Shown: positions 37,068-38,462 of the stretch, piece by piece
How positions within the stretch are numbered: the stretch's first letter is position 1
Layout: each line of letters starts with the position of its first letter
Assembly (NCBI GenBank): GCA_018656655.1
Contig: JABHYW010000014.1
Coordinates: 1-38,462 of the forward strand
Length of the DNA: 38,462 bases
Source of the DNA: Candidatus Komeilibacteria bacterium
Lineage (GTDB): Bacteria > Patescibacteriota > Patescibacteriia > UBA1558 > GWA2-36-10
Reading direction: 5' to 3'
Position numbers and translations under genes: made by a program
The notes under the pieces: model-generated
Database searches by the model: none
Seen by the model: the letters and a program-made list of their open reading frames with translations, nothing else
Told to the model about the DNA's origin: nothing

Positions 37068-37097
37068 TTGACAAAGCATAACGTATCGCGTTATTAT
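37068..37097 (+). promoter_or_regulatory. higA promoter with internal inverted repeat
   Basis: TTGACA-17/18 nt-TTATTA or TATTAT; ATAACG-TATCG-CGTTAT in the spacer (37078-37094). Confidence 0.65.
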
Positions 37098-37129
37098 ATT
37101 AATAATTATTATTGATATATATAAAATAT

Positions 37130-37432
37130 ATGCCAAAAAAAATAAAAGCAATACATCCCGGTGAAATATTAATGGAAGAATTTTTGAAACCTTTTGGAAT
37201 TAGTCAGTATCGTGTAGCTAAGGACATTGGTGTTGCACCAATAAGAATTAATGAGATTGTACATAGCTCAAGAGCTATTACGACTGACACTGCTCTTCGT
37301 CTGGCAAAATATTTTAGTACTTCAGCAGAATTTTGGCTTAATTTACAATCACGTTATAATTTAGAAATAGAAACAGAAAAAATGTCTGGCATTTTACAAA
37401 AAGAAGTTAAGGTGCTGGAATTTAGTAATTAA
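37130..37432 (+). CDS. HigA-family antitoxin/HTH regulator (ORF track start 37112)
   Basis: HPGEILMEEFLKPFGISQYRVAKDIGVAPIRINEIVHSSRAITTDTALRLAKYFSTSAEFWLNLQSRYNLE. Confidence 0.93.
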   Translation: MPKKIKAIHPGEILMEEFLKPFGISQYRVAKDIGVAPIRINEIVHSSRAITTDTALRLAKYFSTSAEFWLNLQSRYNLEIETEKMSGILQKEVKVLEFSN

Positions 37433-37440
37433 TATTTTTC

Positions 37441-37469
37441 TTGACAGTATTTAGTATCTATACTATTAT
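37441..37469 (+). promoter_or_regulatory. Promoter of trpR-like gene
   Basis: TTGACA-17 nt-TATTAT. Confidence 0.85.
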
Positions 37470-37486
37470 ACTAGTGTAATAGTATA
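37459..37486. promoter_or_regulatory. Putative TrpR operator: 28-bp palindrome with one mismatched pair
   Basis: TATACTATTATACTAGTGTAATAGTATA, centre ACTAGT, covers the -10 and ends 1 nt before the trpR ATG. Confidence 0.75.
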
Positions 37487-37487
37487 T

Positions 37488-37736
37488 ATGAATAAGTATT
37501 TAAAAAATCTAAGTAAATATCTTTTGTCTATTAAGACAGAGCGAGAAATGCAGAATTTTTTGACTGCTATTTTCACTCCAGCTGAAATAGAGCATGTGCC
37601 TAAGAGATTAGAGCTAGTGCGTTTATTAAAACAAGGTATACCTCAACATGAGATAGCTAAGCGATTGAACATGGGTGTAGCTACTGTTACTAGAGGATCG
37701 CAAGAATTAAAAAAGGATAATTTTAAAAATGTATAA
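37488..37736 (+). CDS. TrpR/YerC-family repressor
   Basis: LTAIFTPAEIEHVPKRLELVRLLKQGIPQHEIAKRLNMGVATVTRGSQELKK matches the TrpR HTH pattern (GxATxTRGSxxLK). Confidence 0.93.
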   Translation: MNKYLKNLSKYLLSIKTEREMQNFLTAIFTPAEIEHVPKRLELVRLLKQGIPQHEIAKRLNMGVATVTRGSQELKKDNFKNV

Positions 37737-37794
37737 AACAATAAACAAACAATTAAATTGGTGGAAAGATTTTAAGAGCTGGTGTTGTGCTTAG
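37729..37794 (+). CDS. trp leader peptide, 21 aa, three Trp codons
   Basis: MYKTINKQLNWWKDFKSWCCA*; ATG overlaps the 3' end of trpR by 8 nt; followed by terminator and trpB. Confidence 0.8.
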   Translation: MYKTINKQLNWWKDFKSWCCA

Positions 37795-37813
37795 AGTTTT
37801 TATTATTTGCAAC

Positions 37814-37836
37814 AGCCGGTTTGGACCGGTTTTTTT
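37814..37836 (+). terminator. Attenuator terminator upstream of trpB
   Basis: AGCCGGT-TTGG-ACCGGTT followed by T-run. Confidence 0.8.
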
Positions 37837-37863
37837 ATTTAAAAAATTATTAATTATAAAATT

Positions 37864-38462
37864 ATGAAAAAATATGATATTAATCCAGATAAGAATGGTT
37901 ACTTTGGTAAGTACGGAGGTCAAATAATTCCCCCAGACTTAAAACCAATCTTTGACGAAATTGAAAGTTTTTATTTAAACATTAAAGACGATAAAGATTT
38001 CCAAGAAGAATTGCGAGATTTATTAAAAAATTATGTTGGCAGACCTAGCCCAATTTATTATGCTAAAAATTTAAGCACTAAAATTGGTGAGGCTGAAATT
38101 TATTTTAAAAGAGAGGATCTCAATCATACGGGCGCGCATAAAATTAATCATACTTTAGGTGAAGCCTTGATTGCTAAGCGCATGGGCAAGAAAAAACTTT
38201 TAGCTGAAACAGGCGCTGGTCAGCATGGAGTAGCTTTAGCTACAGCAGCAGCTGTAGTTGGGATACCTTGTGAAATACACATGGGGGAAATAGATATAGC
38301 TAAACAAGCTCCAAATGTTCTGCGTATGAAAATATTAGGTGCTAAAGTAGTTCCAGTTAAAATGGGCACTAAAACTCTTAAAGACGCAGTGGATAGTGCC
38401 TTTGGTGAGTTTGTTAAAGATCCTCAAAATATATTTTTTGGGATTGGTTCTGTAGTTGGTCC
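37864..38462 (+). CDS. trpB: Tryptophan synthase beta chain, 3' end outside window
   Basis: [28 protein letters not shown]...[51 protein letters not shown]; not in ORF track (open at window end). Confidence 0.95.

Follow-up and report, generated by a model that had tools for sequence, protein, structure and literature searches.

Organization of the locus

The window, that is, the whole stretch of 38,462 nt analyzed here, comes from a member of the Patescibacteria (CPR) and ends with a short predicted operon in which operator, trpR, trpL, attenuator and trpB follow each other in this order. The features are the following:

37441–37446, + strand: −35 hexamer TTGACA, conserved at the six orthologous loci, each time 17 nt before the −10
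37459–37486, no strand assigned: predicted TrpR operator, 28-bp palindrome TATACTATTATACTAGTGTAATAGTATA, 13 of 14 pairs, conserved in orthologs
37463–37466, no strand assigned: left box CTAT, CTAG-like, 8 bp from the central box
37464–37469, + strand: −10 hexamer TATTAT within the operator, called from ortholog conservation and promoter match
37471–37474, no strand assigned: central box CTAG (CTAG is present in 75 of 81 trpR upstream regions)
37479–37482, no strand assigned: right box ATAG, CTAG-like, 8 bp from the central box
37476–37487, + strand: predicted 12-nt 5′ UTR without Shine-Dalgarno (SD) sequence, from the −10 position
37488–37736, + strand: trpR, 82-aa Trp repressor (Pfam PF01371, predicted fold)
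37729–37794, + strand: trpL, leader peptide MYKTINKQLNWWKDFKSWCCA with its stop codon, overlapping the trpR stop, conserved in relatives
37777–37821, + strand: hairpin formed by 2:3 pairing, a possible antiterminator (−11.9 kcal/mol; z −1.04, weak when taken alone)
37814–37838, + strand: terminator hairpin and T-run (attenuator), from folding and terminator evidence
37864–38462, + strand: trpB, cut by the contig end (PALP, 1.3e-22; TIGR00263, 2.0e-76 over positions 1–188)

The repressor encoded by trpR

The first gene had been named trpR from the sequence alone, and the match to the Trp_repressor domain PF01371 (3.4e-19; 69.1 bits, cut-off 27) and the predicted fold agree on this identity. With TIGR01321 the protein scores 52 bits, under the cut-off of 67.25, and it is therefore classed as a TrpR-family relative and not as a strict TIGR01321 equivalog; this profile is still the top one, over that of YerC/YecD (TIGR02531, 32.5 bits). 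The nearest named record is the TrpR of a Candidatus Komeilibacteria MAG, with 85% identity.

An AF2 monomer model (52 aligned relatives, pLDDT 92.9) has its C-terminus just behind the fifth helix, E. The TrpR family fold has six helices, with helix F in the core of the dimer; on this model, helix F appears to be missing. Its matches in the PDB are TrpR-like proteins and E. coli TrpR, with E-values of about 0.007 for this short protein and a probability of 1.00. Among them is 1TRR, an entry described as tandem binding in a trp repressor/operator half-site complex.

The numbering and the roles of the co-repressor and recognition residues are well established for E. coli TrpR. Following that numbering, R54, G78, A80, T81, T83, R84 and G85 are invariant in the 81 TrpR sequences compared, and T44 is kept in 79 of them. 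An ATITRGS-type motif is common to the TrpR of the window and that of E. coli. Three positions are replaced in the window's TrpR, S88 by E, L41 by A and R69 by H, position 41 being A or G across the 81 sequences. Taken together with the apparent lack of helix F, these changes suggest that tryptophan binding or details of the dimer may differ.

A palindrome over the −10 of the trpR promoter

The sequence-only reading had described a 28-bp palindrome lying over the −10 of a trpR gene with hardly any leader. Both the position of the 28-mer (37459–37486) and its symmetry (13 of 14 pairs) were reproduced. The promoter, TTGACA-N17-TATTAT (37441–37469, 11 of 12 matches), has its −10 inside the palindrome, and the trpR ATG (37488–37490) is located 1 nt past the palindrome end, both as previously described. 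The central hexamer ACTAGT had been described as part of E. coli half-sites as well, and this is the case: 5331 of 5426 E. coli genomes contain a match to a query with GAACTAGTTAACTAGTACGC. What had escaped that first reading is that three boxes, CTAT, CTAG and ATAG, stand exactly 8 bp apart within the palindrome.

As the region is AT-rich, symmetry arising by chance has to be considered. We regard it as practically negligible: the site is the only 28-bp palindrome with at least 13 of 14 pairs in the window, for which order-2 Markov simulations predict 0.025 (the chance rate in simulations of the local AT-rich intergenic DNA is 0.0045 per 100 nt), and it is conserved across genera at orthologous loci. 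A promoter-consensus scan of the window is not significant on its own (2 found vs. 2.8 expected), and the promoter call therefore rests on conservation in the orthologs.

If transcription starts about 7 nt past the −10, at 37476, the 5′ UTR would be of 12 nt, where about 11 nt had been estimated before; as had also been noted, an SD sequence is absent. Nearly leaderless initiation, proposed at that time from both features, still follows from the position of the −10, but the missing SD sequence turns out to be unremarkable, being general in the host genome (absent at 18 of the 21 window genes scored). Before trpR genes, an SD-like motif is missing in 76 of 80 cases. Where a promoter could be recognized (70 loci), the −10 ends 6–11 nt before the ATG in 46, and leaderless or nearly leaderless mRNAs are thus predicted. 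A short trpR leader devoid of SD sequence is plausible.

An inverted repeat placed directly before a start codon could also act as an RNA hairpin, either terminating transcription of the upstream gene or controlling translation of trpR. We find this very improbable. To judge from the −10 position, the operon's own promoter would transcribe only the right half of the repeat; furthermore, no T-run follows the palindrome, and the boxes stay in fixed register with the promoter, whereas their distance from the ATG differs between loci.

Conservation of the site in close orthologs

Phylogenetic footprinting had been suggested as a check of the operator, with loss of the palindrome at orthologous loci as the outcome that would speak against it. 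We searched 37 genomes of the order and found TrpR orthologs, of 59–85% identity, in five besides the host; the site is kept before all five. At each of the six orthologous loci, TTGACA is followed after exactly 17 nt by a −10 (TATTAT, TAATAT or TATCAT), with the palindrome in constant register. The distance from the −10 to the ATG ranges from 14 to 21 nt; the register between promoter and operator stays fixed. Spacer columns are less conserved than operator columns, and in genome G393 one symmetric pair has changed from T/A to C/G on both arms.

When up to three mismatches are allowed, five of the six genomes with trpR contain the core, each a single time and at no other place than upstream of trpR. 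The sole other match in the 37 genomes, in G416, was discarded as a chance match: its centre reads CCTAGG, its neighbour is a cyclopropane-fatty-acid-synthase-like gene, and no trpR is present. With a looser 16-bp pattern, control matches in the host genome were about as many as real ones, and this search is uninformative on further targets.

These data also bear on whether another regulator binds the palindrome, the obvious candidate being a HigA-like HTH protein (HTH_3; 37130–37432) encoded just 26 bp upstream. This seems improbable to us, since the genomes G401, G396 and G384 keep the site though their upstream neighbour differs, the core is confined in the order, bar the unrelated match, to genomes with a trpR of the window type, and the spacing of the boxes is that of trp operators. 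The HigA-like HTH gene (window 37081–37432) has a small inverted repeat of its own, ATAACGTATCGCGTTAT, in its upstream region; no HigB-like ORF is present beside it.

The box pattern in a wider set of trpR loci

Upstream regions of 81 trpR genes were then compared. To the region of the window, a search with the TrpR profile added those of 80 other species loci; this set includes the five orthologs as well as a small number of gammaproteobacteria. The 81 regions contain 42 CTAG pairs at 8 bp (control mean 0.14, maximum 2); a two-box motif scores at least 10/12 in 72 of the 81 (1.3% of shuffles) and a three-box motif at least 14/18 in 56 (0.35% of shuffles), figures to be read with the relatedness of the loci by descent in mind, as shuffle statistics overstate their independence and E-values also ignore phylogeny. 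The box pattern is conserved before most of the Patescibacteria trpR genes examined. In most relatives, the best pair of boxes begins about 18 nt from the start of the −35; in the family of the window, the boxes are shifted downstream from that position by about 3 bp. A natural control is provided by six trpB loci from the host's order that have no trpR beside them; paired boxes are absent there.

One TrpR dimer reads two CTAG-type boxes within about 20 bp. Two footprints of 20 bp shifted by 8 bp make 28 bp, and by this arithmetic the site at 37459–37486 would fit two overlapping dimers bound in tandem, with dyads near 37468.5 and 37476.5. We lean towards such tandem occupancy. It is also conceivable, if rather unlikely, that a single dimer binds at a time to either half of the operator, the symmetry providing alternative positions. 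The degenerate outer boxes of the window and the relatives that score well for two boxes only agree with a single dimer; the three-box score reached in those 56 regions, the match of 28 bp to two offset footprints and the conservation of both outer arms in the orthologs argue instead for two. That the outer boxes are CTAT and ATAG, and not CTAG, is a point against the operator reading as a whole, as are the replaced TrpR residues, the apparent lack of helix F, the low TIGR01321 score and the downstream shift of the boxes in the window's family.

Leader peptide, predicted attenuator and the genes that follow

The trpL ORF encodes 21 aa, includes three Trp codons, some of them consecutive, and its start overlaps the stop of trpR. 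It is conserved in G401, in G396 and in a Peregrinibacterium. More generally, trpR is followed at 27 of 72 loci by a leader containing two or more Trp codons, against an expectation of 1.8. From the presence of such a leader and of a terminator before trpB, attenuation-type control is predicted. An Rfam search gave no match for the leader/attenuator. The 2:3 antiterminator pairing is stronger in relative L068 than in the window. In that locus and in L067 and L069, a gene for a GNAT acetyltransferase takes the place of trpB behind the cassette of trpR, leader and attenuator.

More than half of the wider trpR loci have a gene for TrpB, TrpB2, TrpE or TrpS no more than 2.5 kb away. Other genes found after trpR encode a PvcA/DIT1-like protein (L112), Asp/Glu-type racemases (L122, L144) and a family of proteins of about 490–540 aa (L101, L084, L118). 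The L101 member of this family has no Pfam or NCBIfam match; L084 matches the L101 protein by tblastn, and L118 resembles it by eye only and at its start.

A search of the 37 genomes revealed no trpA, and a search of seven genomes neither trpC nor trpE; TrpB therefore probably salvages indole by joining it to serine. The assembly of the host genome (780 kb) is 84% complete, but these genes are not found in the relatives either, which supports this reading.

A predicted double control and its relation to known systems

The site, the promoter, their register, conservation, the box spacing, the repressor family, the leader peptide and the terminator can all be read from the DNA. On these grounds we put at roughly 0.88 the probability that the palindrome is a TrpR operator through which trpR-trpL-trpB is autorepressed, with leader attenuation before trpB in addition. 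The mechanism that we infer extends to binding, tryptophan dependence, tandem occupancy, transcription start and attenuation. Trp-bound TrpR dimers, most likely two that overlap in tandem, would occupy the three CTAG-like boxes, which cover the −10 and the start site, and block RNA polymerase, the repressor thereby shutting down its own operon. At low tryptophan the promoter would open, and trpL would then provide a second control, of the attenuation type, before trpB.

Several elements recall E. coli, whose trp operator carries a pair of CTAG boxes with an 8-bp spacing that overlies the promoter, and whose trp operon combines a TrpR-family repressor with attenuation by a Trp leader peptide. 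There, trpR is itself a target of TrpR, a case of repressor autoregulation, and the TrpR regulons that comparative genomics has worked out for Proteobacteria belong to gammaproteobacteria (PMC5343134). In contrast to E. coli, trpR stands first in the operon of the window and its stop is overlapped by trpL, the operator is symmetric with three boxes, the 82-aa TrpR is predicted to lack helix F, and trpB alone was found among the trp genes.

The layout resembles that of trpRBA of Chlamydia trachomatis, where trpR comes first and regulates the major promoter, a predicted leader/attenuator region and then trpB follow, and tryptophan synthesis uses indole as substrate (PMC6504234, PMC7755916). The chlamydial operon includes trpA, which was not found here, and its TrpL is described as atypical and unvalidated, with 59 aa and no consecutive Trp codons (PMC7755916), whereas the leader in the window is compact and keeps consecutive Trp codons across genera. 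The YerC/YecD proteins share the fold of the window's TrpR (3kor, 3frw and 3g1c, Gram-positive TrpR-like proteins, are among the top Foldseek matches), and their profile TIGR02531 matches it too, but the TrpR profile scores higher (52 vs. 32.5 bits).

As far as the sequences tell, what appears distinctive in this locus is the combination of a symmetric three-box operator at a nearly leaderless start, a short TrpR and the trpR/trpL overlap. Tentatively, these features could belong to an old, self-contained tryptophan switch of the Patescibacteria: a leaderless or nearly leaderless trpR on a tandem three-box operator, a repressor without helix F that would dimerize differently, and a trpL overlapping its stop, a cassette set before trpB, trpB2, trpE, possibly trpS, GNAT and other genes, and in this host running an indole-salvage operon with trpB as its only trp synthesis gene. 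The textbook double control by repressor and leader peptide has apparently persisted in genomes that measure about 1 Mb or less and that, TrpB apart, seem to lack the synthesis of tryptophan through loss, so that regulation would have outlived the pathway. For a group whose regulatory biochemistry is sparse, such loci offer a minimal repressor along with operators that can be tested, and they bear on TrpR dimerization and on the control of nearly leaderless genes. In the open-access literature, outside which most subscription journals lie, we found no paper on TrpR or attenuation in Patescibacteria, and none of relevance on leaderless genes in CPR.

Leader ORFs at trpB loci without an adjacent trpR

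At four of the six trpB loci that lack an adjacent trpR, a leader ORF contains two Trp codons or more. These loci (L159–L164) have short leader ORFs of their own close behind the promoter, and in L160–L164 there are apparently two in series, the second being rich in Phe, Tyr and Trp (e.g., MKKFIYHNLATFYWRGN).
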